A DNA stretch of 64,000 bases from Adineta ricciae (Eukaryota > Rotifera > Eurotatoria > Adinetida > Adinetidae). Below the pieces are notes generated by a model, which saw only the letters and a program-made list of their open reading frames with translations, did not search any database and had not been told where the DNA came from. The position numbers and the translations under genes are program-made. The stretch covers positions 124,001-188,000 of the forward strand of contig CAJNOJ010000021.1 in the NCBI GenBank assembly GCA_905250025.1, written 5' to 3'. Positions 1-25,699 of this stretch are shown here, piece after piece; positions within the stretch are counted from its first letter, which is position 1, and every line of letters starts with the position of its first letter.

Positions 1-37
1 GTTTCGAGAATAGTCGTCATTCTGGTGAAATACATAC

Positions 38-2529
<2,492 letters not shown>

Positions 2530-3029: not shown

Positions 3030-3057
3030 CGCGCGCGCACACACACACACACACACA
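3030..3057. repeat. (CG)n/(CA)n dinucleotide microsatellite
   Basis: A run of alternating GC followed by about 10 CA units, 0.5 kb upstream of the ATPase start codon. Alternating purine-pyrimidine tracts of this kind can adopt Z-DNA; no role can be shown here. Confidence 0.85.
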
Positions 3058-5165
3058 ATCCATCGAACGATCTATTTATTTCTGTAACTACGAGGATTAT
3101 TAAGGAAACATAAAAAACCGGAGAAGGAAGAATTCAAATTGACTAACCTATTCGTACGCGTTCAGACGAACGTTCTCCTTTTATTGGACTAATTCTCGTT
3201 TGATTCTTATTAATGGTTACATGGTAAATAGAAAGTTCGATGGAGAGAAAAAACAATACTGATTAACCAGTAACGTAGAAAAAACAATGTCAACGGGAAA
3301 TATTTTTCGTTAACATTTTCCCGTTGATCGCCGATACATCGATGCAATAAGAAGAGTACAACGATAGATTTGAATGCAGAATTATATATACGGCCACAAA
3401 AAAAAAACTGGCAAGGCATTTTTTTATTTCGTCTTCACTAAAAAAAAATGTAATCTTGCTCGTAAAATATATCACGCTCGTGTTATTTTATGATCTTTAT
3501 AACCATCGTTTTTTTTAACGATCGATACTTCTGATTTGGATAGAAGTTTTCGATCTTTACAAATACATAGATGTGCATGTTTGTTGCATACATATATGTA
3601 CTCAATTTTACCTTCTTCAAGATAGATAAACGCGTTGCTATAATAATAAATGTCGGCAAAAAAAACCGAGAGAAATGAGGAGACTACGAGGCCAATGCAC
3701 GCATCAACATGCATATGTCATTTCTTCGACTCGTAAACGTGCAAGCACTCCGCATAGAGAATAGAGGAAATAGAGTTTTTGTTCTCAATCGAAAGTCATC
3801 ATATTCGATAACGAATGAGGCAAGAGAAAAAAAAACGATACAGAAAGCAAGAACAAGACTTTTTTTTTCCTATGAAATGACTTTTGATCCTCTCTTTTTT
3901 TGTTCCTTGATAATAACATAATTCTAAGATGGATTGATAAAAGGAAACTTATCCACTCAGCGATTGACAGATCAGAATCAGCAGTCGACTTTCTCTTTGT
4001 ACTCGGAGAACTTACAGAAAATAATGCTTTTTTTTTATTTTAAATAAACTAGTTTCATATTACCTTGACTTGAAGAGAAACAACAAACTTATTCTACCTG
4101 TTGTATCAACACATGAGTGCAAGTATCCCTTTCGTAAAGTGCAAACATTCTCATTCGCAATGAGATAAACAGAAGACAAAACCGCAAATAAACTTACTAC
4201 GTTCAAAATCACAAAAGCTATTTTCTAAATATCTGTTAAACACGATGACTGTCAATATATTTGCCATGTAAATTGCAGTTTGGGGATAATTAAAAAGATG
4301 TTGTATATCCTCTTTTTGATGACAGTTTATTTTTCCTTGTCTATCTGTCACTGTCTATTGCCAATAGGACTGACAAGAAAAAAAAACTATCTGCGAGAGG
4401 GAGAGAGAAAAAAACCGTAGAAGACGACGATGAAACAGGAACACACGATCATGTCACACTAGATGAATTCATTACTGCTGTTATTCGTCTAACTAACCAA
4501 CAGAAATATGAAGATGATAATGTGGAACTAAACATATGTGAAAGACAGTCAAAATAATGCGCAAGTGCACTCTTCTCCCACACATATACATGGCGGTTTA
4601 CATCATTGCCAACATACTAGATGCAACTTCTCTCGTTCCTTGTGTTCTGTGTTCTGCCACCGACAATAGTGTGCATTCGACGACGGCAGCAACGACGACC
4701 AATCTTTGCACACGCACACATTTAGTTTTTTTTGCTTGTGCCGCTCGACACTACTCCGCAATAGCAGAGCGAAAAAAAAAGCCACCATCACATACCAAAG
4801 TGTTTTTATCAATAGGAAAGCGAAGAATTGTGATGATGGTGTGATAGTGGCATTAGAGTAGAGAAAAAAGCATAAGAAAAAGAGAGAAAAAAAACTGGAG
4901 AGAAGGAATCGGAAGCAAGAAAAAAGAAACCCAAGGAAAGGAAAGAAAATAAGAAACCCAGCCTACAAATTTTATAATATCAAACGCACAAAAAAAAGAC
5001 AAGTGTTGATGGTAAAGCAAAAGAAACGAGCGCGGGAGAGTGAATAAGATAAAAAAAATAACTGATTGCAAAAAAAAGACCTTGAAAAGAATCAAGTAAT
5101 TCAGTAATCTGATATTTCAAAACGAAGTATATGTTTGACGAGACATTAATATACAGCACAATAAA

Positions 5166-5191
5166 AAAGAAAGAAAGAAAGAAAGAAAGAT
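5166..5191. repeat. (GAAA)n tetranucleotide repeat
   Basis: About six tandem GAAA units in the gene-poor stretch; a simple microsatellite. Confidence 0.8.
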
Positions 5192-6553
5192 AAGCATCGA
5201 TTTAAATAAGATCAAAGTATATTTCAATTAGAAAGTAAATCGATAAAACATTTAATACAGAAAAAACACGAACGATTCAGATTACACCAGGCAGAAAAAA
5301 AAGCTCATCTGTTACTGTTAATCGAAACAGGATTCGATTATTCCGAATAAACAGTACAATCTGTTCGAAACTCTCTTCTGTATGATGTCAACAGGGAACT
5401 ATTAGGGTTAGTTGACTTGCTGCAGACGATCATCTATCTCCCGAACTAAGTACAAACTTCTGTTTCGTGTGGTCGATGGCTTCTTCTATTAATTTCCTAA
5501 CGATAAATATGACATTTATTCATATTCAAATAGAATGGTATATGTAATACCTTAACGCAAATATATACTCAATTAGCATAGAAAAAGCAAAACTGTGAAT
5601 ATGTTGTTTTTATGGTCTAATCATTCACACATCTATTGATACTTTTAGACTTTAATAAGAGAAAAACTGGCGTAATTGTGTAATGATATAAAAAGATGAA
5701 TGTTTTTCTTTTCTTTGAATAATTATCGCTTTAATCGTAATCATCAGGTGAAGAATGGTAGAATAATGACACGATACTCGCGACGTCAAACAGCATTTCA
5801 ACTAAATCAATTCGTTCACCAGGCAATAGGATCGGCGAGATCTGCGCAGAGTTTTTCAAAACAACACATTAGCTGCAAGTAAGGACGTGATTCATCATCT
5901 ATGCGCATATGTTAATTACGTCACTAATAGCAAAGTCCACCACTTAGTACTTTTGAAAAATTAACGCAAATCGAGATTTTTTTGCATATGACAGATAATC
6001 TCGTATTTCAATGACATTTTTACAATTCTCTAAATGCAAGATAATAGCTATGGGAACATGACCTTATCGTTCGTGCTGATCGGCGTTTCGGTATTTTCGT
6101 TGTTGAAATTTATTATACTCGTTAGAAAGAAGTTTTATACTTTTTTTCATGATGTTGACGTCAGTAGCGATCTTGTTGTTCTTGGCAAGAAACCTTGCAG
6201 ATGAATTACACGTCGGAGCTTTTTTCCTTCTCACCATACATCGATGTTATTATTGCTTGCGAGAGTATACCGAGTACTCCGCTATGAAAGTGATGAGAAA
6301 AAACGTCCATCTGCTATAGAATCGATTTCGATGCATCCAATAAACTAAATTAATTCCAACTGACTTCATAGAAAAGGATCGTTGAGGTAGTTTCAAGCGA
6401 AAGAACTTTTTCACTTATGTATGAAGTCCTTTGACTGGAAAATCAGCTTCTTCTGTCAAGAGCTGGAAGAACAATGGCTTAATTAGAGATTCTCTTTTTT
6501 TTGCCAATGACTTGTTTATTTATCAAAAAGAAAAACACACAAACGTCTAAGAA

Positions 6554-7122
6554 TTATTCGGAATACCATTCGGATTTACGTAGGTCACTTCGACACATTG
6601 GACATTTGGAATTTTTCTAAAATTCAGCGAAACGTTCGCGTTGAAACTGGGAGGCAAAGAAATTCCTTCTTACCTTAAGCCATTTATCGATACATTTGTA
6701 ATGAAATTGATGTAAACATGGAATCGTTCGTAGTTTATCATCTGCTTTGTATTCATTCAAGCAAATGTCGCATAGTTTACCGACTGCAGAGACTTTGTCG
6801 GCAGTTGTTGTTGGATAACAATCGATTAGTTGTTTAGCCAAACCGATATCAGCAAAACTTTCATCATCTTCGTTATCATCGTCGAATTGTTCAACGTGTG
6901 CACTCTCAGAATAGAAATCACCTTCGTCGTCCGTTTCCCAACTGAAAATTTCCGGACAAATAAGTTTTCGATATTACATCGACTGTCTTACCTATCACTT
7001 TCACCGGCATGGGCTTCATCGACTTCCTCAATGTGTTCGGAGGATGATGAAGCAGCAGCAGCAGCAGCTTGTTGATCAGTTGAAACTGGAATTACTTGAT
7101 CATCTTGATTACTCGAAGCCAT
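6554..7122 (-). CDS. Small RING-H2 E3 ubiquitin ligase
   Basis: Predicted 153-aa E3 ligase. Exons 6992-7122, 6674-6941, 6554-6616, all with GT-AG borders and consistent phase. The N-terminus is acidic and low in complexity, with an alanine run (GCT repeat) near residue 26. The C-terminus holds a RING-H2 finger: CDICLNEYKADDKLRTIPC, then H, H, C, the DKWLK helix and a final CPMC pair encoded by the last exon. RING-H2 fingers recruit E2 enzymes. No membrane segment is seen, and the substrate is unknown. The start at 7120-7122 is the first ATG of the open exon. The next gene on the same strand (7636-8737) is another RING-H2 gene, so they may be a diverged tandem pair, although similarity outside the finger is low. 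Confidence 0.85.
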
Positions 7123-7635
7123 TGTAGCACTTATTCGCACTGAGTTCGTTATTGCCGAAATATTCGAATATCATGACTCACTAGCGTTGATGATGAATGG
7201 ATATTTCCTCTAGTATCTGCCTGTAGAACAGATATTTTCAATAGATGTCGATGATTTGCAATGCTTGATCTCGATTTTCATTTCTCTTCGGATTAGCGAG
7301 TTTACCCAAATTGTTTCCTGTATGATAAACTGTCGACGGCATTCGGAATTCATTGTTGTCTGATTGGAAAAACTCTCATCGGCGTGCTGTGATCGAAAAT
7401 AGATAATTACTTATTCTCTAAGGACACGAAATAAACGAAGTGGAACAATAAAAAATAGCTCATTTTTAACCAGTAGCAAGATTTATGTCATGATATTGAT
7501 CTTACATAGAAGAAGCAAAAATATAACAATTTTTATTCGTGTGTAAAACATCATTGTGCGACAGTGAATTGATTAACAAAATAGATTGTTTTTCTTCATG
7601 CAAAACATTGTTGGGAAAGAAAAGAAGTCACATAT

Positions 7636-8737
7636 TATACAATAGGAGGTATACGACAGATTGGACATTGATTTTTGTCCTAAACAAAGATCAAATTGAT
7701 TCGATATACTGAAATCGGATCTTATCTTACTTTTAACCATTTATCTATGCATTCTTTATGATATAGATGAAAACAGCGTAGTCGACGTAATGTTTGACTT
7801 TGTTCGAAGTCATCCCAACACACACTGCACTTATTTTCTTCGTCGTTTTTATTCTTCGCGCCTTGAAATACTTCGGTTGGTAGAATATTAATCTGTTCCG
7901 AAGTTAATTTTTTCGTTGGAACGTTTTTATCAAGGTCAAGTAATCTCTGCATAAAAATATAAACAATAAAGATAAAGGAGCTTCCCTCCGAAAACTTGCT
8001 TCATAATCATCAGGACCAAAGTCATCTGCAGTACCCTGAGTATCATGATTTCGTCGCCCTGGAAGGCGCTGCCCACTAGCAGCTGCTATGGAACTGAAAA
8101 GGTTTGCGATATTGCTAGCAGGATCGTTACTTCTTGCCGGACGACGAACTGTCGGTCTTTCTATTAGTCTTGGTATTGATATTATGTCAGGTTCATTAGG
8201 TTCAAGCCTTGCACTTTGTTGTCGTCGTGCGTAATGGTTAGGTCGTTGTTGGTGTCTTCGTCCTCGTTGGTTTTCTTCAGCTTGTAAATGTTCAGCTAAT
8301 TGTGCGTCACTGCGGATCGATGCAGCATGTGAAGGTGTTCTTTTAGTGGTTGATGAACCTCTGTATGATCGAGAGGGATCGAGAGTTTGTCGAGAATATT
8401 CTTCTTGTTGAAGTTCACGAGCGTAAGCTGCGTCAGCATCAATATCGACTCGTTGACGAAGATTAAACGGAATGCGAATGTATTCGACTTGTTCTGAAAC
8501 GTCCATGGGCTCAGTTTCGTAAAAATTTGCTTGTTGTTGTCGAGCAATTTCTTCGTCACTCATTGTCTCTAGTGCAAGCGCCGAGTTCAATCGTGGCTAA
8601 ATGAACGGAAATGTCAGTTGCTTTGAATTAGGAAAATAACTTACAAGGATCCGATCGAACAGATCGAATCCGAGTATCTCTTGTCGTTCACTTACACCAC
8701 GTGTTTGTGGCGAAAAAGACCTTCGACTATCTGTCAT
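7636..8737 (-). CDS. RING-H2 E3 ubiquitin ligase with long disordered N-terminus
   Basis: About 315 aa. Exons 8645-8737, 8000-8596, 7731-7946 and a last exon at about 7636-7680. The first 230 residues are charged and disordered (Q/R-rich, a region like RRPARSNDPASN). The C-terminal RING-H2 has CSVCWDDFEQSQTLRRLRC, then H, H, C, DKWLK and CPICR. The layout resembles cytoplasmic ligases of the RNF115/RNF126/RNF38 kind, but no zinc finger is seen at the N-terminus, so no symbol is given. The intron between exons 2 and 3 keeps frame only if it starts with GC (GCAAGT donor). I could not place the last intron to the base, so the final exon border is approximate. Confidence 0.8.
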
Positions 8738-9375
8738 TGTATCTCCAAACAAGTGAAAACCTTCTTACTTGTCGTAAACAAGTGACTCACAGCGTTTTCT
8801 TTCTTTTAATAACGTGAAAAACAACATCAACATGGACAAATAAGTAACGAAGAAAAGGAAAAAAACCCAGCATGGAAGCCGACACAGAAGCAAAAAAGGA
8901 ACACCTACCATTTCGTAACGATTAGGATTCGATGCATTGATAGACGCAGTGTTTGCTCGGGAAGAACGCATACCTTGTTTGAAGATTATAATCAAGTGAT
9001 GTTGATCTGAAAGAACTATCCAGTTCGCTACTCTACTCACAAATTCAAATTTGGAATAAATTTAACAAAACTTTGATACATATGTTCTCATTAAGAAGAC
9101 GATGATATCTTTGCCTCTTGCTTTGAAAAGATCTACTTAATAGAAAAATGAAGCAATGGCTTCCTATGAGTCCGAGAAAACGAAGAATGCAAACAACAAT
9201 AAATATCACAAAGGCCATAAAGAAGACTTTTTCAAATGATGCGATTGGTAGTAGATTTAAAGAATAAAATGTCAGTATGAAATTTCGACAAAATCAGATG
9301 GCGTGCTTTCGCAACAAAAAATTTAGTTTTCCATCACAAAAACTACATTTAATTTACACACGAGTTGCACGTTTT

Positions 9376-9909
9376 TCATTGATGTTCATGCAGAAAAGCA
9401 GCGTCCATGCTATTCAATAATGTTAGTAAGTCCTGTGATAGTTGGTCTCCATCAACCGAAGAAGAATTCAATAAAGATACAAATTCATCACGCATAATAA
9501 AAGGAATCAATGATGTATGTTGCATATTATACAATTCTCTTCGTGATTTCGCCGTCTGTCGGTCAGTAGATCCTTGCTGATATCTTGTAATTTCATCCAC
9601 TATATCCGTATCGATTTTTATTCGTTTACTATCAGATGAATCTTCTATCAATTGAAGTTCACATAGTGTTTCTTGCTGGTATTGACGAATTACAGCTGCT
9701 TTTTGTAATCTGCGAATGCGATCTTCTAAAGACGCTCTTGATGATCCATGTTCCGAGCTAGTATTCGTACTATCGCCTAAGACCTACAATGAATTCATAA
9801 AATAGAACAATCAGTAGAAAAGATATGCTTATACATGTTTCAAGTTCGCACGAAGTGTTCGGCGTTGATCAGTTTGTTGTGCTTCTGACGAAATATAATC
9901 CAACGGCAT
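9376..9909 (-). CDS. Hypothetical 160-aa helical protein
   Basis: Two exons, 9835-9909 and 9376-9783, joined in frame by a GT-AG intron; 160 aa from the ATG at 9907-9909. No domain is recognised. The middle is predicted helical and charged (residues such as EDRIRRLQKAAVIRQYQQET), followed by a short basic patch SKRIKID that could act as a nuclear signal. The C-terminus is leucine-rich (DLLTLLNSMDAAFLHEHQ). Neighbours are a RING ligase and ORC3 on the same strand. The consistent splice phase and even codon use support a real gene; the function is unknown. Confidence 0.6.
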
Positions 9910-10416
9910 AACAATGATTGTAACGATAACAACAACGCAAAATAAGATTGTGATGACAAGTGACCGATTTTATATATAGGTGAATGCAAATACAATGAAA
10001 AATAACATTCATTGTAGACAGATTCTACAATAAGAAATAATGTCAAGATAACATCATCTCTAATACAGTCAATTTTTAGTAGGTAGCTGACGTCTTTTCT
10101 TTTCACGAATGACATGACACTCAAATCATGTCCAATGTGTCGATTAAACTGCGTTGGAGACAAAATCAAAGCAAGTGAAAACAATACATTATGATCAACA
10201 AGAGTCATCACAGATTATTATTGTTATTAGAGAGATTGATGAAAGCAACGCAGCGTAAAGGAGCAAGTCAAACTAGCAGAAATCGCCTTGAAAAGTGCGA
10301 GAACCCAAAGTAAATGCAAGTTACGTGATATTCTTATTACTTTTATTTGTTTTTACAATAGATCCATGAATTATGTATATTATTTGCCAAGTTAACAAAG
10401 AAAGAAAAGTTTCTAT

Positions 10417-12481
10417 TTAAGTGTCCCAGGTTAATTTGGTGGCGTGATAAGAACGCTGTAATGACGTTTTTGTAAAGCCAAGGTAGTCGAGTTCGGCAAG
10501 ACCGTGAACAAATCGTGCTCTGAAATGAGTTCAAATGAAATTTGTTTTTAAAAGTTTCGATTCATTATCAATCTTACAAGATCGATTTATCAGCATCATT
10601 GTCCAGAACTTCTCGTTCTTCGACCAGAGTTGCGAATGACTGAAAAACAAGATGATTTGAAGAATACGGTCATTTGATTGTCGAACGAATCTTACTTCAA
10701 ACCAATCGCTTAATGGAATTTTCGTACCCGATTCTGTGTAGATGCGAAAGAGCAAAGCTAAATCTGGTGTTTGTGCTTGTTTGCAATTATTCGTTTCTGT
10801 TAATTCTCGAATGAATGTGGCTCTTGTCATTGGAATCAGTCGTTCTTGCAAGAGATAGTCAGTGATTTTCGTTGTTGAATGAGCATTGGAAGAAATAAAT
10901 TCTTCACAGATTTGTTTCAACCAGATGAACACTTGTTCTCGGTATCGATTTAGTTTTCGATCTCCAACCGATCTTAATGTGTTGCTCAATGCTTGAGACT
11001 CATCGGCAATTTGTTGTTGTTGTTCAATCAAAATCTTCTTTGCCAACTGACTATACTTTTTACATAAAGAATTCTCATTACAGCTATGCTCAATGAATGA
11101 ATTCAAGCACGTTTCAAGTTGATAAGTAGTCGAGGAATTGACTGATAATGTTAATTCATTAAAAATTGGACTGTTGGAGAGATAAGATCCGTAGAACGAT
11201 GAACGATAACGACCGAGTGGATAATTAGGTAGTTGATTGCACGAAACATACACAGCATTGAAGAGACAAATGTTCAGTGAGTGTGTTGGTGCAGTATTGG
11301 TTTCAGAAAAGGCAATGAACTAAAATTAGGAAGTCAAATCTCGATTATTGATCTTCTTCGCTGACCTTGAGTGCATGTTCGAGCCATGCCAATGAAAATG
11401 TTTCGAAATAGCCGTTATCAACGAACTGAAGTTGTTCAGCAGTGATTGAAAATTGTTTCTTTGGATCATTTTCCGTTAGAAATAACTAGATTCAATCGAA
11501 AATGAGCGTCGAAGTTTTGCTTCGAACGAACAACCTACTGATTTAATAATATATTCGTAGTATTTTCTTGCGCTCGAGTCGTAGATGGTATCGATGGATA
11601 GTTTCGATGCGATACGACTTGAAACTAGCCGTTGTAATGAATGTTCACCACCAGACAAACCCAAGACGAATGAGATCGAGATGAATTTAATTTGTAGACT
11701 GGAAACAAAAAAACAAGTCAAATCTGCTTTTCGCGATTGTTTTTGCCATACCTGAGTAAAGTGATCAAATTCTCAAATACAGATATATTAATTGATTCGA
11801 ATTCTGGAATTATGAAAATTATCGAACGCTTTTCACTTTCTTTTAACTAAATACATGTGAAACTATCAATGAACTTTCTGTCGGTAAGACATGCTATTCA
11901 AACCTCATTGTAGCTGCTGACGAATTTGCTCAATTGGAAGAAAACGTTCTTACTCTCGTTGTCTTTGTCTGGATAAAACTAAATGAACTATTATCAGAGG
12001 AACGAATAAACTTTGTACAATTTACGATACTTTATTTAGTTCTGTCTTTGTCATCTTTAATATATTATGAATAGATGAGTATTGTTCGGGATTCAGTAGT
12101 TTAATGATGATTGAATGGAATTTTCCAGCTAATTGCTCCTGAAGTTCATCAAACAGATGACTGTGCTCCGAGATATTCGAATCTGAAGGTATACGGAGAT
12201 CTTCGAAACTACTGAACTTATCGTCGGAAGTACAAACCCATGCATAAGGCCATGACAGGAATATGCTCAAAACATCGTTGGGTAATCCGACGAAATTTTT
12301 CATTCTTTTTCATAATGTCCAGCACACTGGTAACAAGACGAGCGTGCAATTGAGATTTAACATTCGTAATCACATTCGTAATGTGATCAACACGAGCCAA
12401 ATCAAGTTTTTCATGTGGTTTCTTGCTTGTCGATCGTTGCGTAGAACGAGTGATAGAATGAACTTCGACAGTAGTATCCAT
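10417..12481 (-). CDS. ORC3: Origin recognition complex subunit 3, with apparent internal frameshift
   Basis: ORC subunit that helps bind replication origins and load MCM. About eight exons. The identity rests on the C-terminus ARFVHGLAELDYLGF...LTW, on the NYPLGR segment, on the LSDWFE segment, and on a winged-helix-like end, all in the same order as animal ORC3. A 15-nt exon at 11954-11968 joins the N-terminal block to the LKESEKRSIIFIIPEF block. In the first exon (12031-12481) the homology starts in one frame (ending EHIPVMALCMG near 12240) and continues directly in the +1 frame (VCTSDDKFSSFEDL), with no room for an intron. So this copy is shifted, is an assembly or base-call error, or is an inactive allele. 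The start at 12479-12481 is the only ATG in the open stretch; an upstream exon is possible. Confidence 0.85.
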
Positions 12482-12868
12482 ATTCAGATGTAATATTGAT
12501 TTTCCACACGCTTCACTGGTTCCTTTGTTCAGTTCGATCGAGAATCGAGATATGCCATTATTGTCAAGTGCACTTTTTCGTTCGAATGGAGGATAAGTTA
12601 GAAGATGGTGCTCGATAACACATAGTCAGCTTATTAGAGAACGTGTTCTTTTGTATCAAGTAGCTGCTGGATACAATTTTTCTGATTTTCTTTTATTAAG
12701 ATGAGGAAAAAAAACTTGTAGAAAAATATGATTCAATTGAAACCTCTTGCTTCCGAAAGAAACGAAAGGTTTAAAGAATTCAGTAACAAAAAAAGGCCCG
12801 AATGACTATGTAGACAAACCGCTATCATAGTCATTTTATCTTGATTACTGAATACGAAAACCGCTTGT

Positions 12869-15734
12869 TTAAATCATATATTGTAACGTATTTGTGTGAG
12901 TATGTTCCAAATGATTTCCTGAGGATAATTTTTCTTGTGCTAAGTACGCTTGAAAGAGATTATGAGCCAATGCTGCAATTGTCACAGGTCCAACAGCGCC
13001 AACAGGTGGTGTGATGAGAATACATTTGTCACGAACCGAGTCCATGTGCACATCACCACGAATGTGTGGTGGATCGTGACTAACTCCAGCATCGACGATG
13101 ACCAATGATCGATTCTCGGGAAGGAGATCACCGTGAATAAGATGTGGCGAACCTGTAGCTGTGATAATGATATCAGCGTGACTAAAAGCTTCGCGAAGGT
13201 CTTGTGTGTGTATTGAACAAATCGTCACTGTAGCACCACGAGCCTTACAGAGAAGGCTAACTGGTTCTCCTGTTTCAATAAAGGAATGTCAATGTTCGTC
13301 TATCTTGCTCTAAAGTGATATACGTACCGACTAGTTTTGAAGAGCCAACAACGACGACATTCTTACCATTCAACTTAACATCATACCAATCGAGTAGCCA
13401 AATGATGGCTTGAGCAGCACATGGAACAAACGATGAGTTCGGGTAGAGCAGACCATCAATATCTTTTTCTGGATGAATAAGTTTGAGTACACCACTTTGA
13501 TATTGTTTCAAATGTTCAGGAAAAGGTAATTGAACAAGAATGCCATGAATATTTGGATCTGCATTCCATTCACGAATGACACGTTCTAATTTCAGTCCAA
13601 ATAAATTATCATTTTCACCTGGTTGCAGTTGAACGATATGTGTTTTAAAATTAACTTTTTCCCGAAGACTTTTTTCTTTCATTCTCACGTATAATTCGCT
13701 TTCAGGTTTCGAGCCAGCTAATAAACATCCCAGAGCTGGTACATTTCTATCGTCTAAACATATGTACATTGAGATTCTGTTTTCCATCGATACAAAGCTA
13801 CCTACTCGGTTCATATTTACTCTTGATTTCATTATAGATATGTGCTGCACATGTTTGGCCTTTCATCATAGTTGCCTGTTTGCTGCCAACTGAAAGTAGA
13901 TGGAAAGGCGTTGTATTCGCAGGTATTTTTCGAACAAACTGGTAACGAGCACGATTGTATTCAAAAGAAGCGAAGTTATCATTCATGATCTTGATTTCAC
14001 GATGACGACAAGCTTCCGGATGGCCAAACTTCGTGATGTTTTCTTGACGTTTATGTGCCTTCCATTTCAAATGTTCACTGAGATTAGGAAGGATATCATT
14101 CGTAATCTTCTCCTGCACTTCATTCCATGCTGAATACGTAAAATCAGCAAAACCTGAAGTCACTGCTTGTTGAGCATTCATTGGTTGCAGATGATTGACA
14201 AGTGAGTTCGCCTGTGCAACTGATCCGAGACGAGATGGTAAATTGAACGTCCAATATTCTGAACCAAATAAACCCATCGTTCTGTAATGTGCATTGATAA
14301 TTGAGTTTTCATGAATGAAGATAAAGTCACCTACGAGAGGCATCATTGCACCACCTGCTCCTGCATGTCCTCGTAAGACCGATACAATAATTTTATCCGA
14401 AAGATCCATCATAAGATATCGAATTAGATCATTAATAGCATGAATATATTTTTGCGATTGTTCAACAGGATTGTCCGATGCTTCAATTGTATTTAAATCA
14501 ATTCCGTTGGAAAAATATCGAAGGCCACCCAGGAGAACAACGACTTTCACACTAGCATTGATATTCTGCCTGATCGCTTGTTTTAACCGATAACAGTGAT
14601 CATCACGCATAGCTCCATTGTAGAAATCCCATTGAACATAACATACATCATCTTCGACATCCACATGAATATCTTCAAATGAGAGATAGTTTTGTAAGAG
14701 AGTAGGTGTCGACGGTAAGACTTGAGCTGCTGGTAGTTTAAAAGGATTCTTCTTATCCAATGCGTTTTTCAAATGTGTTATCCATAGAGCACTGGTACTG
14801 TCTGCACAGCTGAGAAGGAAAGCATTTTTGTCTTTCGCCAGAATGGTTTTTGGAGGTGTGTGGATAGATTTGTTCAATGGCTGAACATGAGCACCGAAGA
14901 GATACAGCGGAATATTACAAAGAGAATCGAGGAGACCTGGTTGAGAGTCGCGAGACTGAATTTTACGTGCGATTGTACTCGCTGAATCCGAAGACCAATC
15001 AATGGCGCAGTCACGTTGTTTCAGTGTATTTAGTGGTAAACTTTTTACTGAAGCTAAAGAGAAACAGATACGTAAGTTAAGTTTGTCTCTGTAAATGAAT
15101 GGATGAACTGGTCATTACCCGGTTGTTCAACACCTGGATAATGTCCAAGGAAGATTTTATGATAAATTTCTCGTAATCCTTTCATTGCGAGTGTTGTCAA
15201 AATATTGTAAGCATCGCCCTTTGTTGCTGTCTGTGGTAAATGTTGTTCTGTATCAAGTTTTTCTTCCGCCCATACAGGACCAGCGTCCATTTCTTCAACC
15301 GCTTCGAGTATTGTTACTCCCCATTCTTTTGGTCTTTCCAACACCCATCGATCGACTGAATGGCGACCGCGATCACCCACTGGACCAGGGTGGACGATCA
15401 ATGTGATGTAATCGCGGTAGATTTGATTTGGAATTGATCGAGTTAAAAATGGACAAATGATCAAATCAGGTTTATGCATTTGAACACGCTCGACGAGTTT
15501 CTCATTGGAATGCAACTCAACCATTACTCGACACTGAAGTGTGGAAGACAGAAGACATAGAGCTTTCTGTGACATCGTATTATGACTTGTAACAATGAAC
15601 AAGATGTCGAGTGATTGCCGACCATTCTTTATCTCACGTTCAAGTGTTGGCCATGCTGGATGAACAAAGCGTTTCGAATAACAATTGCGAAATAGTCGCC
15701 GATTCAATAAACGAATAGCATTACTCGAGTGCAT
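12869..15734 (-). CDS. HypX-FolD fusion: formyltransferase + crotonase (CO-forming HypX type) + methylene-THF dehydrogenase/cyclohydrolase
   Basis: Four exons (15119-15734, 13806-15053, 13328-13753, 12869-13269) give 897 codons with no frame break: one 896-aa protein. Residues 1-42 are basic and non-acidic, like a mitochondrial presequence. Residues 45-310 are a formyltransferase of HypX type (KPDLIICPFLTRSIP, VHPGPVGDRG, EMDAGPVWA, CAIDWS, YLFGAH). Residues 330-580 are the HypX crotonase half (FSNGIDLNTIE, RGHAGAGGAMM, GLFGSEYWTFNLP). Residues 590-896 are FolD: ELYVRMK with catalytic Tyr/Lys, ILVQLPFP, EKDIDGL, VGSSKLVG, PPVGAVGPVT. In known bacteria HypX moves a formyl group from formyl-THF to CoA and releases CO for [NiFe]-hydrogenase. 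FolD makes formyl-THF, so the fusion joins source and user (inference). The usual GRS of the FolD nucleotide loop is GSS here. Neighbours ORC3 and VPS45 are ordinary animal genes, and the introns argue against contamination. Confidence 0.93.
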
Positions 15735-16868
15735 TTTGAATTGTACTGTCTGTAATGAAAAAGCATTTCTTTACATCCCTTCATAATTAATCATGTTAGG
15801 AAGAGTGACGAAAATTGCTCTGCGGGATATGAAACTTTTCTCTCATGTTGATTTACCATAACCAAACGTGATTCACATTCAGTACATTACACTACGACCT
15901 GTTTTTGTACTTTACTAGCTCCGATAGAAATAAATAGTAGTAGGTCGACAGTTCGTACTGTCGCATTCTGAAAGATATGAACGTTGAAGGTAGGCAAAAG
16001 AGTAAATGGGGAAAGTAGAAACAGATCAAAGCATATTTCGTTCAATATATGAACCTTTTATATTACGTAAAGTAAACATGCGATTGAAAATAATCTAGAT
16101 CAGCAGTAACTATCCCTATATAGACCCACATTCATAAGAAAAGAAGAAGAGCAAGTACATTAAAAGATCATCTGTAAAAACATACATATGAACTATATTA
16201 TAGGTACTTTTCTTTTTTCTTACACAGTGCTCGCTCATTAACTTATAGAAGATCGGAAGAAACAATCGTACTACATATCGATAATTATGTTTCACTGAGA
16301 GTGATCACGCGAGCGTTCGTTTAACTTCATACTCGGCAGAATGTTTTTGTCACATTCAAATACTTCGCACATGAAAGCTGCGCAATTATACTCGGCCTGT
16401 GCTGATTCAGGTAAATTCAATTGGCAGCGCTATGAATAGGATCACAAAAACACTTTTGATGAATCGAAAGAAATATTTTGTATAAATTGCACATTCATTT
16501 AATAGAATTACGTCCCACCTTTTGAAAATAATTGCACAGTTGGATACTTGTACGAAACTGTATTCCAAAGAGAAGGATCCTTGAAAAGTACGAAAATGGC
16601 AAAACTCAAAAGCATGAGTGCAAACGTGGACGAAAACAAAACTTTTGGTTTACACCCAAAAGTACGTGTTTTTGCGAATATTTTCTCTGCTCCTCAAGTT
16701 CTTTTCTCTCTTGTTCAATTGGGCAAAGAGCGGCCTCTTTCTTACTCTCATATCCATTGGTTCAGATGATGTCACGAATGAATCAATCGATTGACAGCTT
16801 GTGTAAAGTAAAAGGACGAAAGTAGCATCTAAGTTCATCTGCTATTTTCTCAAGAGAATCTCATCAAA
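15735..16868. promoter_or_regulatory. Divergent intergenic region between HypX-FolD and VPS45
   Basis: 1.1 kb between two divergent starts, AT-rich, with no supported gene. It should hold both promoters. A frame near 16532-16825 shows no domain and is probably chance. No operator or TATA box could be assigned. Confidence 0.4.
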
Positions 16869-19202
16869 ATGACGAATATCAATGTTATCGAAGCGGTTCG
16901 TTCGTATATCAATCGAATGATTGAAGATTGCGGCTCAACGATAAAAGGGCTTGTCATGGACAAAGAAACGGTTTCGAATTCTTTCCTAGTCATACTGCTT
17001 TCTGGAGACCTTTTCTTTTCTAGGCTTCGATTGTTAGCATGGTATATGCTCAATCGGAAATTCTTCAAAAAGAAGTATTCCTTTTCGAACGTATTGACAT
17101 TGCTGGCCAGAAATCATTGAAAAATCTGAGCGCGATCTGTTTTCTCCGACCAACGGATGAGAACATTCAAGCGCTAGTACGCGAGTTACGTGATCCAAAG
17201 TATGGAAGTTATTTTATCTGTAAGCTTATTTATTGATCACAGTTGTCTTTCGAACAAAAAAAAACGCTGTTCAATTTAGATTTTACAAACTTTGTTGAAA
17301 TGAGTGACATCAAAACGTTAGCTGAAGCCGATGAATTCGAATGTGTTCGAGTTGTACAAGAATTTTATGCAGATTACTTAGCCATCAATCCACATTTATA
17401 TTCCCTCAACATTCCGAGTACTTATCAAGTGAGCAGAAAGATTTTAGAGAAGACGTTTTTTCAAAGTTATTTATACTAGAGAAATTATGAATGGAATGAA
17501 AATCTTCTCCGTCGTACCGTACAAGGCTTAATGTCATTATTACTTTCTCTACGAAAGAAAAGTGCAACAATTCGGTATCAAAAGTCATCACCAATGGCTA
17601 GATCGTTAGCTGATAAGCTTTTCGTAAGTTTTCTCTGCGAAAAATCACCTTTTCTAAACTTTGTAAATCTTCCCAGAGCACATTGAAACGTCAAGTGGAC
17701 TTCAGCACACCGAATCCGAACGATATCAATCAAACAATAGTATTGATCGTTGATCGACGTGAGGACGCAATTACTCCACTATTGAATCAGGTTTGCTTTG
17801 CGGATAAATCTAACGAAACGAACGAATTTTTCTAGTGGACATACCAAGCCATGGTTCATGAATTGATCGGAATCAAAAATAATCGGGTTAGTCTTAGTCA
17901 AGTGCCGGGTATTACGAAAGAATTGGAAGAAGTTGTGATGAATGCTGAATATGATGAGTTCTACGGCAATGTAAGGCACACAGAGAATATTGGATCATAC
18001 TCACCATGTATCTGTATAGAATCTCTATAGTAATTTTGGTGAAATTGCCACAAATATTAAAGGGCTGATGGAACATTTTCAAGAGAAACACAAGAGTCAA
18101 TCAAAAATCGAATCGATTGGCGATATGAAGGTTGACATTCAAATGTTCACTGTAATGTAATCACATGTCTTCCTATCTCCAAATAGGTCTTTATCGAAAA
18201 CTATCCGCAATTCAAGAAACTTTCGGGCACTGTGTCTAAACATGTGACCATTGTCAGCGAATTGTCACGTTTAGTTGGTCAATATCATTTGCTCGAAGTC
18301 AGTGAAACTGAGCAACATTTAGTTTGTCAAGGTGATCATAATGAAGTTGTTCAAGTATGCAAAATTTGTCTTTAGTTTTTCAACTTTCATTTTTCCTTTT
18401 ATAATTTCTAGAAAATTAAACGTTTGATCAAAGACGAGAAAATTCGCGATGTCGATGTCCTTCGTCTGCTATCTCTCTACGCATTACGTTATGAACGGCA
18501 TGCAAGTAATGAATTCAATACATTGAAATATGAAGCACAAAAACATCGACGATTGTCCGACAAGCATCTTCATGTATGGAAACCGAATTTTTCTCACCTA
18601 GGAAATGCTCATAGTTGACTTGTAGTTTCTCCAAGCTATACTCGAATACGGCGGTTCAAAATTTCGACAAGCCGATCTGTTCAATACTCAAACACCGATG
18701 GCTATAACCAGACAATTCATCCGCGGATTGCGAGTGCGTGAAAATCAGAAGACTATATCTATTTATAGACTATTTGCTCATATACATAGGGAGTAGATAA
18801 TGTCTATGCGCAGCATGTCCCATTAATAAAAGATTTAATTGATCAATTACTACGCGGCAAATTGAAGGACACATCCTATCCAAATGTAAGTTCGAAAGAA
18901 CAAGCTACACAACAAAATTTATTACAACAAGGTCAAACTGTCAAGTACGAAAACTGATTATTTTCGTCCATAATCGTCTTCTGTTTGTCTGTAGGCCAAG
19001 TGAAATTATTGTCTATGTCATCGGTGGTGTGACTTATGAAGAATCGTACCATATTCAGATGATGAACAAGCAGAGTGCACGCATTTTACTCGGTGGTTCC
19101 TATATCCACAATTTTACGTCATTTATCGATGAAGTTCTCGATGGAGCACCATCGTCATTATCGGCTGCGTCCAATGAACTTCTCTCATCAAAACGTCGTT
19201 AA
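16869..19202 (+). CDS. VPS45: Vacuolar protein sorting-associated protein 45 (Sec1/Munc18 family)
   Basis: SM protein that holds endosomal/TGN syntaxin (syntaxin-16 type) and promotes SNARE pairing for endosome traffic. Twelve exons: 16869-16970, 17024-17219, 17280-17428, 17480-17623, 17677-17790, 17836-17970, 18020-18130, 18187-18354, 18412-18573, 18626-18733, 18790-18944, 18995-19202; 583 aa, against about 570 in mammals. Diagnostic blocks: [40 protein letters not shown]-like [53 protein letters not shown] and [12 protein letters not shown]. All introns are about 45-65 nt. The gene is complete, with an ATG in the expected place relative to the family N-terminus. Confidence 0.96.
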
Positions 19203-19991
19203 TTTACATTTATTTTGCTTTTCTTTCAATGTTGTAACAAATAAAATACAGAATAATCATATCCGTGTAGAACAAACATCTTCCAACCAAAGCTATTTAT
19301 TGTTCTAAGCTTCCGTCGATAAATTATCTTATGCGAATCGTTGTTGAGATTCATACATCATTTCTATCGACATTTGTTTTGTATTTTCACACCAGGCCAT
19401 ATTCTCCTCTCGATTCTCTCCTATTTCCCACAGATAACAGTTGTTTTTAGACTTATCCGATCGGAAATACAGAATAGCAATCAATCGACGGGCGACTTTT
19501 CTGTTTGAATTCAATACATAATCGATAACAGAACTAGCGTTGACATGTATGATAAATTTGAGTAAGTCTTTCAGTTAGTCTTTTCAGAAAATTGCACGTC
19601 TGTTGAGATCACATACCAAAGTTATAAATCGTCACATTCGTTCTTCCACAACAAATCATTTCGAGAAGCAGGATGATTTTATTGCTTTCTCCATTATTGT
19701 CGATATCAATCTTTGTATGTTACAGAACATACATTTGACATCTCATATGGACCCTCATGATACACACAATTACTTCCTGCACAAAGAAAATTTTCAACAA
19801 GTAATGAACAATCATTATTTTTACTCGTACAAATTTCATCTTTTGACAGAAGAAAAAAAAGGCGTATTGCACAATATCGAGTAGTTGTAATTAGATGTAC
19901 TTCTTGCATTCGTTGATCAATCTAGACAATTAGCGTTTGACAGAACTAAAACAGATCGTGTACTCTACTGTTGTTTTTCTGCTAGTTATTA
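19203..19991. other. Intergenic, no gene seen
   Basis: About 0.8 kb after the VPS45 stop. An AATAAA-like signal (aataaaataca) lies at about 19242-19250 and may end the VPS45 transcript. No supported open frame. Confidence 0.45.
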
Positions 19992-20456
19992 ATGTATTCA
20001 GCAACGAAATCAAACACACCTCCTCGGACAAGTCAACTATTCATTCGAGTAAGGTATTTTCTTGGACTGTTTCGCTAATCATGAATGCTCTTTTTTATTC
20101 AGATCATTTCTAATGAAGCATTTTCGCATTTGATAAATCGCAGATATCTTCTAGGAAGATTTCACCTCTGCATTTATTTTCCATTGGTTTATCAAGATCC
20201 TTGGCTGATAGTTAAAGGTAAACGAATAATTCTTATCTAAATATCAACTTAGGGTGAAAATGCATAATATCATCAATTGCGGGGGGGAAAGTATCTTTTT
20301 CGATATCTCAAATGTCGTACTTGTTTTTTAGTTCCATGATAAAGAAACAGATAGATAAGTCATAATTGTAACATTCTGTCGTGTGTTTTTCTTTCCCGAT
20401 TCGTAGAATTCATTTACCACGCCTATTTAACGTTACTCCGATCGACGTTATCATAA
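19992..20456 (+). CDS. Possible small three-exon gene, 73 aa
   Basis: Exons 19992-20048, 20103-20217 and 20407-20456 join through good GT-AG borders (cga|gtaagg, ttattcag|atc, aaag|gtaaac, cgtag|aatt) into an uninterrupted 73-aa frame. No domain is recognised. Residues near 38-50 are hydrophobic (GRFHLCIYFPLVY). The only support is splice-phase consistency, so this may be chance. Confidence 0.3.
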
Positions 20457-20912
20457 TTTATCTTGACATAGGCAAAGAAACTCTTCGCTTGCCACACATC
20501 TTCATTAACCGAAAAAGGAACCAAAACTACGAATTTCTATCAAGTAGAAGCGTATTTGTTTTCCAGAGGAAAATTACCTGCTACGGTTGTTCATTTAGGG
20601 GCACAAGCGAGATCTTCTTTACATACTTCATTGAGGACACATTCTATCGATTAGTTAGGAGACCTCGATAGTTTGCAATCATTGGGCGTTTCTTTCTTTC
20701 TATTATTTCTTTTTCTATCTGCAGGAAAAAAAAAGAGAAACGAAGAGAGGAAATCACTTGTTAGAGCTTCCTTATATGTGGTAGATGAGAAGAAAAAGAG
20801 AAAACTATCAGGATATATAACGACATTCAATACAAGTCTGCGCAAGTGTTTAGTTAACACATCTCTTGACTCTTGATTTATGCCTACAAATGTCTTTTGA
20901 TTAATTGTTGAA

Positions 20913-22140
20913 ATGACTAATGCAGCAAAACAAAATCGCAATCATGCAACCGTCTTGTTTTTGATTATTTCTATTGGTGAAATCATCGTTGAATACGGTA
21001 AGCTATTTCAGTTTTCTATCAATAACGACTATTCAACTGAAGTTGAAATAAGGAAAAAAATCAATATACCCAAGTGCACTTGACTCAGTCGGCATCTTAG
21101 ATATAGACGTGATAAGAAAGCTCTTCGATTCCAGCTTCCATATGAGACCTTATCTCAAGGTCAGATTGTTTATATCGTTCTAATGGGTACTAAATTACAA
21201 CCACCTTTCAGAAATCTCCTCTTATGCAATTTGATGTCTACCTTGAGACCTCTAACACGCATTAGTCCCTCGATGCCGAAACATTGGCTAGTTCGAAATT
21301 TTCAGAAAATCAACAATAATTGAAAGCGACACATTCACTGAGAAAGATATTTTTTCTTGTATAACTTCAACATACATCCTACTTTTCTTTTGCACATTTT
21401 TCTGTTCAATATATACATTGAATATCTTATCCTTCATTACATGATTTAAGCCTTTGACCTTGTTTACTGACCAATCGTTCATATAATTATCAATTGATTT
21501 TTTTGCTCGTTCTCCCTTCTTTTCCTCTCATCTTTACAGACGAGGATACGTTTTGACGTAGCTATTTATGTATGGTGAAAAGAAATGAGTGCACACGCCA
21601 TCACCGCGTTTGGTCGATACACAAACATATACATGCATATGTGCATCCTCGTCGATACGTTTATTTCATGATATAACTAGTGTCTATAGTTGCAGAAAGC
21701 AAAATTGGCGGACGGTTATTCTTCACCTCGTGTATGCTGAGCTTCTGTGTTTTTACCTTTTTCTGCGTATTAGCCGTTTTTCTCGGCAATATTTTCTTAA
21801 GAAATACATTTTCGTATATTGTTTTGCTAATGGATATTTTCAATGATTCACTAAATGGTAAGTTTATCTCTCTACAGCAGAAAAAAATCAATAATGGAAA
21901 CCTTGTCGAAACGATTGATTAGTTTAATTTCTTTCAGTGTGCCTTGTTGTTTTATTCTATTTCGCATATCACTCTTGCGTAAGCGTACTGAGTTTCATAG
22001 GATATTCCATTTGTTTATATCTCTTGTTTAACTATTGCCGATCGAATAAAGGTCGTGAATATCTGTTTATGTTCAGGCAGAAAAACTGTTCAATGTTTCT
22101 TCGCAATAGAAAGAAAAGAGTATCTTTTTCAGGACGTTGA
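20913..22140 (+). CDS. Predicted small multi-pass membrane protein, 149 aa
   Basis: Exons 20913-20997, 21696-21857 and 21938-22140 join in matching phase (1, 1) and end at a TGA, giving 149 aa. Three or four hydrophobic stretches: TVLFLIISIGEIIVEY, a segment LSFCVFTFFCVLAVFLG, and two more in VCLVVLFYFAYHSCVS and FIGYSICLYLLFNY. The tail is basic and cytosol-like (RNRKKRVSF). The first intron would be about 700 nt, far above the local norm, so an extra exon could be missing. No family is recognised. Confidence 0.5.
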
Positions 22141-22349
22141 TACGATGAAGCTTACTAAAATAGCCCGAACACTATCATGAAGAAAGAAAGCTGATGTCCT
22201 GCAGTATTTAGATATCTTCTGACCGACATAAAAGCATGAGTGAGTGAATGAACTGCTTGAAATTCTTCGAACAAAGTACGATGATTGCGCTGTTATTAGT
22301 TATTTAATCTGTTTGGAATTGTTCGTTTCTCGTCAGATTTCCTCGACGT

Positions 22350-23527
22350 ATGGGGTCAAGAGGTAATACAAGTCAAAGAGAGGGACACATGATATCGTTT
22401 GAATTGATAATAGCATATTTGTTTTTCTCTGAAAGTAATCAAATGATTTCGTCTTTTCTAGTCCGTCGTAATGAAACGGTTTGCTGTCTGATTGGTTTTG
22501 GTATTGGTGTCGGTTGCTGTATTCTATATCGATTGATATCAAATTTTTTGACGCCTTCGATCAATATTATCCCAAGCCAGAATGTAAATAATCCTTATGT
22601 GTATCGAATGCTAGAGTTCTCGGTTGTTGTTGTTGTTGTTATATTTAGGTCAAAACGTCGATGCCATCGATTGCAGAGCGCAAACGCGAACGTTCGCTAA
22701 GTATTAAATATGAAGAAGAGAATCGTGAACGAAGTAACACGAATGCAGACGAAATGACTTGGTCAGAAATGTCATCATCATTGAGTACTGTCAATCTACT
22801 TCATGATTCGTACCATTCCAATTCATTGACGGGAGATTCGGGCGTGGATTGTCCGGAAATTCCAATACGAAATCACCATGTACACCACGATGATGAAACA
22901 CGAAAATATGATTCCGATTCCGGAATTCATCATGATACACGTAAGAAGAAATTCTTTGCACAGATGTATTCGACGCATCTATTCACTTTCAGAGAAAGTG
23001 ACTGAAACTCAAATGATGTCCTACATATCGACAGAAAAGGGCTTAGAACGTGCATTGGAACAAACGAGTCGATTCTACACTGATCTAGAACACATTGCAC
23101 TCGATCTTGGCACATTAACAAAACGGTATTCACACTCAGAATCATCGTTAGTTCGTCCATCGATCGATGCATTGGACTGGGATTGGCTTGATGATATGCA
23201 TTCACCAACAGTTCAATCACCTAAAACAATCTCTCGTAAGCATCACTGTCTTCGTTCGAGTAATAAATCGAAACTCCGGCGAAGGATCAACATGAATATG
23301 AATCAAACAGAGTACAACGAATCCGATCAAGAAAATCGTTCATTCGATCTTTCAACTTCACCGCTAAGACGAAGTACGAACAAATTGTTTAGTCTATTTC
23401 TTGTACTAATTATTTTTCTTCTATCTTTCTCTCTCTCGAAGGACACAGTTCAGTCTACTTTGGTTCAACTGATAATTCAAGTGATGAAGATAACGGCGGA
23501 AATGAAACTTTACAAATCAAATCCTAG
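22350..23527 (+). CDS. Predicted single-pass membrane-anchored protein with FFAT-like tail
   Basis: Five exons, read as MGSR + VRRNETVCC... with introns at about 22363-22461, 22586-22649, 22940-22992 and 23377-23442; about 310 aa. An N-terminal transmembrane anchor (CCLIGFGIGVGCCILYRLI) is followed by a long charged disordered region and a helical part (GLERALEQTSRFYTDLEHIA). The C-terminus reads RRHSSVYFGSTDNSSDEDN. The order 'N-terminal anchor, helix, SSVYF plus acidic run' recalls the first part of RMDN3/PTPIP51, a mitochondria-ER tether that binds VAP proteins by an FFAT motif, but the tetratricopeptide part of RMDN3 is absent. The assignment is tentative. Confidence 0.6.
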
Positions 23528-23974
23528 ATAAGTTCAGTCTTATCTTTCATTTCCGGTGTGCTGAACATCGATCGAAGAGTTTAACAAACAAAAAACTGCT
23601 CTCGAGATGTAGCGAGTTGATTATATTTTTCGATGTGTCAGATTTCGATATGTGTATAACTGATGACACGTTGATGTACATGTAAATTTTCTTCTCTCTC
23701 TCTCTCACTCTATGTTCTTTGCTTCTTTCTTTTCGGTTCAAATTGCATTTGATTATTCTGATAAACAAAAAACAAAGCATCACTTGATAGATATTTGGTT
23801 TCATTGCCAGTCTATAGATTTCTATCCTTAATATTGTTTTACATCAGCCAATACTACTCTAAGCTTCTACGGTATATTTTGAAGTAAAATGTCAAACAAG
23901 TGAAGATACTTTTTAAAGATAATTTATTTCAAAAGGAAAAAAAGAGAATAATTTAATTGTAATTGAAATTAAGA

Positions 23975-24304
23975 TCATTCGTCTTTGGTGTCAAGGACTG
24001 ACACCCGTTTTGCAGTTTCAGCCGTCGGTGAGGAATTATCTGTGTCGAAAAGAAGTCGGCTACTATCTTCGTTAAATAATGGTACTGATGGACCCTGGAC
24101 GTCTTTGAATAACAATTTTTTTTTATCTTCAGTTGGAATTCCAGTCGTTTTTTCCGTTTGGTCAAAAGATTTCTCTGTTGTTCCAGGAAACTCCTCTTTG
24201 TCATCGTCGACAGGAGCAGATGAAATGGTGATGGCCATAGCCAAAAGTAATGTTGCCAAGACGAAAATATAACGATTTGAAACCATGTTGATAATTGAAG
24301 ACAA
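23975..24304 (-). CDS. Small secreted acidic protein
   Basis: Single-exon 109-aa frame (103 aa if started at the second ATG, MVSNRY). A clear signal peptide (YIFVLATLLLAMAITISSA) is followed by a likely cleavage site after SSA. The mature part is about 75-80 residues, rich in Asp, Glu, Lys, Ser and Thr, with no cysteines, so it is probably disordered. No family is recognised. The signal peptide gives moderate support. Confidence 0.6.
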   Translation of the reverse strand: MSSIINMVSNRYIFVLATLLLAMAITISSAPVDDDKEEFPGTTEKSFDQTEKTTGIPTEDKKKLLFKDVQGPSVPLFNEDSSRLLFDTDNSSPTAETAKRVSVLDTKDE

Positions 24305-25133
24305 TTACAAGACGTATGAAACTTTACCGAAGACGATCGATGCTTTTATAGTCAATCGAAACTCCATCTTTCGTTCTTTATGTGCGTTCTTTGTTTGCCG
24401 TCGACGACTTTACTTCTATAGTCCATATCTTTGTGAACGTAGACCTATTATTAAGACGTCTACGTCGACCAAAGTGGTGTCACTATGATCGTGCGCGCGC
24501 CTGGATAGAAAGAAAAGAAAAGATCTGCCTTGACACAAGTAAATCGGAAGATTCACAAGATTAGTCTCAGCGAACATGTAGGTTGAACTACGAACGTCAG
24601 GATCAGGCATTTCTATTCCCTGTCTTCTCGGCTTACTGATTGTAAAAGAAACATTCATAATTGAATGATCCATAATATTCCGACAATGAGATCGTTCATG
24701 AATACAACTGGAATGTTGCGATTACCGAATTCCATAATGGATAACTATGTAGATTCTATCTGACTGTTTCATCGCTCGCGAATGTGTTTCTCACAGATGT
24801 GACATACAAACGCAATGGCTATGGTTACATATTCATATGAATTTAATATGCACAACAACAACAAAAAAAAACAAGTGTTTTCTCGTTTGATGAACTGTGT
24901 AAGCAAAGAAGAGCAAAACAAACATTCTATATTTATCAAATTTAAAACATACATAATTATCACAAATAAATTTTAAAAAAAAACAGATCTCGTGAAAAGT
25001 TTCATGTATTAATTGGTTTTTGTCAACGAAGTAAACAACAGCAATAAGAAAAAGAAGAAGACTACTCATATACAATAAGATGAGAGATGAACAAAAACGA
25101 ACTGTATTATTAGTATTATTTGCATAAAATACA
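24305..25133. other. Intergenic, no gene seen
   Basis: 0.8 kb of AT-rich DNA with A-runs. Open frames here are short and hydrophobic by base composition only. Confidence 0.4.
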
Positions 25134-25699
25134 CTAATCATCATCGTGATCATTTGAATTAGGAATAAATTTGAGAAGAAGCGCTGCGTCAACATTGGTC
25201 GAGCAATGCGGACATGTCAGGCTCTTTTCTAACCATCCATCTATACACGATGGATGAAACACGTGTGCACCGTCGCATGGTAATTGTCGGATCTGTTCAT
25301 TAGGTAGAAAATCAATTAAACAAATAGCGCAACTAAAACAAATGGATAGAGAAAAAGCTTTCTACATGAGATCTTCATCTTACTCAGTTTGTTTGATTAA
25401 TTTTTCATTGTAGTATACTAAGGGTAAATGTTCGAAGAGATTTCGACATTGTGCAGCTTTGATGGCATTCATATCTGTTACAACTGTTGACTGATTTACC
25501 GAACGATTTAATGTGACTAACTAAAACCAGTAGGAAGTCAAATAGATTCCATCGATAGATGAGATTTTACCTTTGGCATAGATGTTTCCGATACATTTGA
25601 AGTTGAATGAGAATTTGATGACGATGTTGACGTTCGATGAGTGGGTGGGAGGGGAAGAAGACTCGCATGATCTTCAGGTACACGCCAGCAATTTCCCAT
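25134..25699 (-). CDS. RNF11: RING finger protein 11 homologue
   Basis: Exons 25571-25699, 25384-25520, 25134-25332; 154 aa, the same length as the mammalian protein as I recall it. Starts MGNCW, an N-myristoylation (Gly2) plus palmitoylation (Cys4) signal that anchors RNF11 to endosomal membrane. The RING-H2 finger is CAICLIDF...LPCDGAHVFHPSC...GWLEKSLTCPHC, followed by NVDAALLLKF, which matches the RNF11 tail. The proline-rich PPxY motif that binds Nedd4-type ligases is not seen; PLPPTH is in its place. RNF11 is an adaptor in ubiquitin editing and endosome sorting. It is divergent from the Rab5 gene, 477 bp away. Confidence 0.88.

Follow-up and report, generated by a model that had tools for sequence, protein, structure and literature searches.

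The bdelloid rotifer Adineta ricciae carries a gene in which HypX is fused to FolD, and which on balance probably encodes a eukaryote-type formyl-tetrahydrofolate decarbonylase of the HypX fold, supplied by its own enzyme. The gene lies in a stretch of 64,000 nucleotides, here called the window (assembly GCA_905250025.1, contig CAJNOJ010000021.1, positions 124,001 to 188,000 of the forward strand). Support comes from the intact fused gene, the fold match, the catalytic residues and purifying selection, and further from the lack of a [NiFe]-hydrogenase or HypD match and from repeated, independent fusion of HypX and FolD. The reactions are inferred from the biochemistry of HypX and FolD in bacteria. 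First, the FolD half would oxidise 5,10-methylene-tetrahydrofolate (THF) to 10-formyl-THF using NAD(P)+. The N-terminal half of HypX would then hand the formyl group to bound coenzyme A (CoA), and the crotonase half would cleave formyl-CoA to carbon monoxide (CO) and CoA. Overall, a one-carbon unit would be converted to CO, while NAD(P)H would be gained and THF set free again. A review citing work on R. eutropha describes how HypX makes CO from 10-formyl-THF via bound formyl-CoA (PMC12134894).

The gene is on the minus strand and, as an earlier note on this DNA had described, its four exons join into one open frame, of 896 amino acids plus the stop codon. All introns are GT-AG (Table 1). The translation is identical to P0001, an Adineta ricciae protein of 896 aa in the database (100% identity over 100%). 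The gene and its neighbours are spanned by a tandem duplication of 28.4 kb, the long pieces of which are 93–94% identical, with one 660-base piece at 90%. This contains a second intact HypX-FolD copy (C21:111348-108483), which differs at 31 of 897 positions when the stop is counted. Comparison of the copies (NG86) gave a dN of 0.0155 and a dS of 0.1455 (ratio 0.106), and by part the ratio is 0.126 for HypX and 0.042 for FolD. Both halves are under purifying selection. These values bear on the idea that bacterial HypX was recently acquired and is now decaying, or that the gene contaminates the assembly. Bdelloids are known for foreign genes and the distribution is patchy, but the gene has introns and host-like base composition at third codon positions (GC3 0.31; eight neighbours, 0.26–0.37), and those of its window neighbours that Pfam recognises are animal-type. 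In addition, there is the second copy with a dN/dS of 0.11, an A. vaga protein is 83% identical, and the HypX half falls within a eukaryote-type clade. This origin is largely refuted and we give it hardly any weight.

The fused protein has the domains of a HypX followed by those of a FolD, all above the Pfam gathering cut-off: Formyl_trans_N (75–162), Formyl_trans_C (216–303), ECH_1 (362–522), THF_DHG_CYH (602–721) and THF_DHG_CYH_C (723–873). The closest solved structure is that of Aquifex HypX (6J0P), which matches over about residues 42–591 with an E value of 9e-89, far beyond chance, and FolD structure chains match residues ~597–880. The formyltransferase and crotonase halves are in the HypX arrangement, and the Pfam scan of the fused protein found no aldehyde dehydrogenase domain of the kind that ALDH1L has. 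The sequence blocks assigned to HypX in the earlier note (VHPGPVGDRG, FSNGIDLNTIE and GLFGSEYWT) are present in the translation, and its domain reading of HypX-type formyltransferase, crotonase and full FolD is borne out by these matches and by the proposed catalytic residues.

Muraki and colleagues (PMC6802093) propose that in Aquifex HypX the formyl group is transferred to CoA by H74, D80 and D109, and that Y416 and E426 carry out the decarbonylation. The rotifer keeps the N-domain triad as H115, D121 and D150 and the C-domain pair as Y462 and E471. Across 89 aligned HypX rows (34 from eukaryote groups and reversed fusions, 55 bacterial; numbering of the Aquifex protein of L027), position 74 is always His where a letter is present, D80 is Asn once, and D109 and E426 vary by gaps only. 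Thr is found at Tyr416 in five hydrogenase-linked Bacteroidota rows (L049, L062, L066, L077 and L085). Four of the seven CoA-site residues mutated in Aquifex (R9, Q15, R131, S194, Q195, N306 and R542) are kept, as Q56 (Q15), S242 (S194), Q243 (Q195) and N351 (N306). All 34 eukaryote-group rows retain both Y416 and E426, the Thr of the Bacteroidota notwithstanding, which together with purifying selection on both halves argues against a crotonase half that works without decarbonylation. Such a protein would be a formyl-CoA supplier or a formyl-THF hydrolase, with formyl-CoA or formate as the product. We think this improbable, even with crotonases switching chemistry easily, no CO-requiring partner known in A. 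ricciae, CoA-site R131 not kept and INAHY standing beside Y462 where most rows have NPHY (P0106 also has INAHY).

As a putative decarbonylase, the rotifer protein is like bacterial HypX/HoxX (Aquifex 6J0P; Cupriavidus necator, formerly Ralstonia eutropha) in its fold over residues 40–601, the five proposed catalytic residues and the equivalents of Q15, S194, Q195 and N306. It differs in its N-terminal extension, its C-terminal FolD, the loss of R131, its place in a separate eukaryote-type clade and the host genome, which has no [NiFe]-hydrogenase or HypD match. The extension is 41 residues long and contains 9 Lys/Arg and 2 Asp/Glu, whereas the median extension of bacterial rows (n=74) is 0. 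Similar basic extensions occur in several of the 20 eukaryote-group rows scored and are absent from others. The presequence suspected in the earlier note stands in so far as the basic extension resembles one on simple scores; the helix predicted at residues 3–18 is of low confidence. The N-terminus may be a mitochondrial presequence and would then point, more weakly, to a mitochondrial location.

The FolD half is complete, has two domains and retains Y52, K56, Q100, D123 and D125 (human MTHFD1 numbering). In these respects it resembles FolD and MTHFD2-type methylene-THF dehydrogenase-cyclohydrolases, from which it differs by fusion to HypX and an altered PGGVGPMT motif. On the tree it lies apart from the MTHFD1-like gene and the second FolD-like gene that A. 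ricciae also has. Separately, the catalytic Lys of FolD is Ile in 12 of 12 Chloroflexota-type fusion rows aligned (P0013, P0193, P0195, P0197, P0200, P0202, P0203, P0216, P0235, P0248, P0251 and L035; the records of two are named Chloroflexi or Ktedonobacter), so cyclohydrolase activity may be absent there.

As a maturation factor of [NiFe]-hydrogenase, HypX would need that enzyme and the HypD scaffold in its host, and neither was found here. Searches with PF00374 ([NiFe]-hydrogenase) and PF01924 (HypD) gave 0 matches in the A. ricciae genome and did give matches in control genomes, in agreement with the earlier description of a lineage without [NiFe]-hydrogenase. A search with PF00551 found nine places in the genome, two of which are the fusion copies. 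Frames read by eye were GART-like (C14, C168), a standalone formyltransferase (C227) and MTFMT-like (C66); C310, a second place on C227 and C179 were sorted into these kinds solely from match range and frame length. Two neighbouring standalone formyltransferase frames of 327 aa were noted (G000:C227:42525-43028 and 54843-55343). No ALDH1L-like place was recognised among the PF00551 matches, for which no search for an adjoining aldehyde dehydrogenase domain was made.

ALDH1L (10-formyl-THF dehydrogenase), the product of which is CO2, shares a formyl-THF-using N-domain with the rotifer protein; the latter has a crotonase half, not a carrier and aldehyde dehydrogenase, and its predicted product is CO. 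PMC6802093 compares this N-domain with HypX. The fusion could replace ALDH1L as a one-carbon overflow valve, in which excess methylene- or formyl-THF would be removed, THF and NAD(P)H regenerated and CO discarded as waste. Physical coupling to FolD would favour flux from methylene-THF, and none of the PF00551 places looked ALDH1L-like, but a mitochondrion would be badly served by CO as waste, and an ALDH1L is possible in A. ricciae given the scope of that search. An overflow valve is unlikely in our view, though for the fate of the CO it ranks second, after signalling.

The proposed supply of a HypX decarbonylase by FolD draws on the distribution of fusions. Three protein searches were made and the best 120 of about 2700–3400 matches in each were used. 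Among the matches listed there were 360 HypX-domain proteins or open reading frames, comprising 255 HypX alone, 89 HypX-FolD and 16 FolD-HypX (three rows relabelled by hand). The fusion is not peculiar to A. ricciae. The order HypX-FolD occurs in eukaryotes in Adineta, Rotaria, Didymodactylos, Macrostomum lignano and the stramenopile Chrysoparadoxa australica, as well as in transcriptome-derived eukaryotic records, metagenomic rows and Chloroflexota (Ktedonobacter P0216 and one 888-aa frame at L035). The reversed order is found in Brachionus plicatilis, a partial B. calyciflorus protein, Gigasporaceae (Glomeromycota; placement checked for two genera) and a few other rows. An unfused HypX is present in a gnat, Bradysia coprophila, and in a liverwort, Calypogeia fissa. 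Brachionus (P0047, P0198) and Gigasporaceae (P0028, P0029, P0033, P0074, P0187) have the reversed fusion in common, with 42–53% identity to P0047, which suggests eukaryote-to-eukaryote transfer or a shared donor. A. steineri P0004 and Didymodactylos carnosus P0012 sit very near each other in the tree of 89 HypX domains (branches of 0.08 and 0.07) and come from different bdelloid genera, so assembly cross-contamination between them is possible.

The trees separate these groups. The first HypX tree (89 hand-picked domains, quick search, SH-aLRT) split off 24 eukaryote-type rows, including all seven bdelloid rows used, at a support of 100, and placed the Macrostomum-type, FolD-HypX and Chloroflexota-type fusions as separate groups among bacteria (100, 100 and 99). 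A more careful tree of 48 rows set 19 eukaryote-type rows apart at 100/100, with the Macrostomum-type and FolD-HypX groups pairing weakly (80/58). In both, the eukaryote-type branch excludes every bacterial row used, so a direct bacterial donor to rotifers is not supported. In the FolD tree (44 domains), the Macrostomum-type joins human MTHFD1 and the MTHFD1-like gene of A. ricciae (100/99), and the bdelloid fusion FolDs lie outside the animal MTHFD1 group and do not group as MTHFD1 D/C domains. Approximately unbiased (AU) tests of FolD, for groups named after a tree had been inspected, rejected a single clade of eukaryote-type and Macrostomum-type (p 0.0006) and one of all HypX-FolD FolDs (p 0.0004). 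The HypX-side test rejected a clade of eukaryote-type and Chloroflexota-type (p 0.019). The fusion thus appears to have arisen at least three times independently, probably four, one of these in reversed order. The eukaryote-type HypX clade mixes fused and unfused proteins (p 0.016 against fused rows alone), which implies loss or repeated gain of the fusion. That the two enzymes were joined repeatedly, and in both orders, strongly suggests that FolD supplies HypX.

HypX is also found away from hydrogenase genes in bacteria. HypX of marine bacteria is the subject of a survey (PMC2974642). Here, 87 bacterial loci were used (80 best genome loci and 7 from plasmids), with flanks of up to 10 kb, some of them short; in 27 of them the flanks contained neither hydrogenase nor hyp genes. 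FolD accompanies HypX at two loci, fused at L035 and 190 bp upstream at L050. An MHYT-domain gene (PF03707) stands beside HypX in five of the 27 loci without hydrogenase genes (Table 1) and in 0 of the 60 others. Whole-genome searches of 21 genomes found eight without a PF00374 match, and four of the five MHYT cases are among these; 3/3 controls matched. In the class of the L059 genome, HypX was present in 21 of 369 genomes drawn. Of the 20 that were new, 19 had PF00374 matches (some weak ones may be complex I, a relative), 18 loci had adjacent hyp or hyd genes and none had an MHYT within ~1.5 kb of HypX. In the class of the L016 genome, HypX was present in 5 of 398 genomes drawn, four of them new: G638 has no PF00374 match and an MHYT gene directly downstream of HypX (frames broken), G453 has neither hydrogenase match nor MHYT, and G452 and G473 have a hydrogenase and no MHYT. 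According to PMC11347149, the MHYT domain of CoxC, a CO-responsive regulator, senses CO, with copper. CoxC is a bacterial membrane sensor and no part of the rotifer gene; the likeness is solely the idea of CO as an effector.

Several observations weigh on the other side. In the CoA site, 54 of 55 bacterial rows have Arg at position 131, where the rotifer protein has an alignment gap; R9 is S50, at a position variable across the family, and R542 is K581, Lys also being present in most rows. In FolD, A. ricciae and A. vaga have VGAVGPVT where PGGVGPMT is expected (PGGVGP is retained in P0004 and P0005), and R173 and S197 (human MTHFD1 numbering) are replaced by Ser and Ile. These two residues are NADP-phosphate contacts, so the dehydrogenase of the fused FolD may prefer NAD. 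The absence searches used a six-frame reading, exon by exon. Independence of the eukaryote-type fusion is moderately supported on FolD relative to the Chloroflexota-type (AU p 0.024) and FolD-HypX (p 0.052) groups, P0010 and P0011 are inseparable from the eukaryote-type group (AU p 0.18), and the HypX-side test does not reject a clade of eukaryote-type and Macrostomum-type (p 0.33). Pooled, MHYT is beside HypX in 5 of 11 genomes without a PF00374 match and in 1 of 37 with one (Fisher p 0.0014), although the pattern was noticed post hoc, 21 of the 48 genomes were picked for lacking hydrogenase genes beside HypX, flank lengths were unequal and several genomes are metagenome-assembled. When near relatives are collapsed, the counts are 2/8 and 1/37 (p 0.077), and six of the 11 genomes have no MHYT neighbour. 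As the pairs are bacterial, they are linked to the rotifer by analogy only.

Eighteen other window frames of at least 150 aa were put through the Pfam scan. Matches above the cut-off were to the Ras family, DUF92, RING, APH-type phosphotransferase and cyclic-nucleotide binding; those to an ORC winged helix and an intermediate filament were below it. The APH-type phosphotransferase frame (PF01636; window 48818-49900, minus strand) is close to the RING and cyclic-nucleotide-binding genes.

Table 1. Parts of the fused gene, the tandem repeat of the window and MHYT genes beside bacterial HypX
Feature	Position	Strand	Description
Exon 1	15119..15734	-	Residues 1-205 and first base of codon 206; matches P0001; presequence-like extension 1-41, then HypX formyltransferase part with H115, D121, D150
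Intron 1	15054..15118	-	65 bases, GT-AG; equal length in tandem copy
Exon 2	13806..15053	-	Remaining formyltransferase half, crotonase half (Y462, E471), HypX C-terminal tail, FolD start at ~residue 597
Intron 2	13754..13805	-	52 bases, GT-AG
Exon 3	13328..13753	-	FolD catalytic domain (YVRMK, VQLP, DIDG motifs), beginning of NAD(P)-binding domain
Intron 3	13270..13327	-	58 bases, GT-AG
Exon 4	12869..13269	-	FolD remainder, short tail, stop codon; ITPPVGAVGPVT where ITPVPGGVGPMT is usual
Tandemly repeated part of window	2..26681	.	Counterpart 28.4 kb upstream on contig, C21:95584-122357
MHYT neighbour	L016:11739-14156		Peribacillus; MHYT-PAS-GGDEF-EAL, next gene
MHYT neighbour	L017:2828-5320		Bacillus aerolatus; MHYT-PAS-GGDEF-EAL, next gene
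MHYT neighbour	L032:3234-6023		Methylococcaceae; MHYT-PAS-kinase-receiver, two genes on
MHYT neighbour	L059:167-922		Cellvibrionaceae; MHYT alone, preceding gene
MHYT neighbour	L070:9146-9910		Gammaproteobacterial; MHYT alone, preceding gene

For the fate of the CO, our tentative first choice is signalling or regulation and not metal-site assembly, and this gains indirect support from the bacterial HypX-MHYT neighbours. More speculatively, HypX-FolD might be a dedicated, haem-independent CO synthase of animals, fungi and protists, fused repeatedly because CO derived from folate is a signal, with HypX also present unfused in a liverwort and a gnat. The HypX-MHYT pair of bacteria that lack hydrogenase would then be the prokaryotic counterpart, a CO maker beside a CO sensor. 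In the open-licence literature no well-described fusion with another proven function was found, nor, by title, anything on eukaryotic or bdelloid HypX, most subscription papers being outside this scope; the same literature held nothing on HypX in rotifers, HypX with MHYT or endogenous CO via formyl-CoA.

Haem oxygenase is generally regarded as the enzyme that makes CO in animals. If an intact, selected and folate-fed CO-forming enzyme works in an animal without a hydrogenase match, it would constitute a second animal route to CO, and with the HypX-MHYT neighbours of bacteria, endogenous CO signalling can be put to a direct test.
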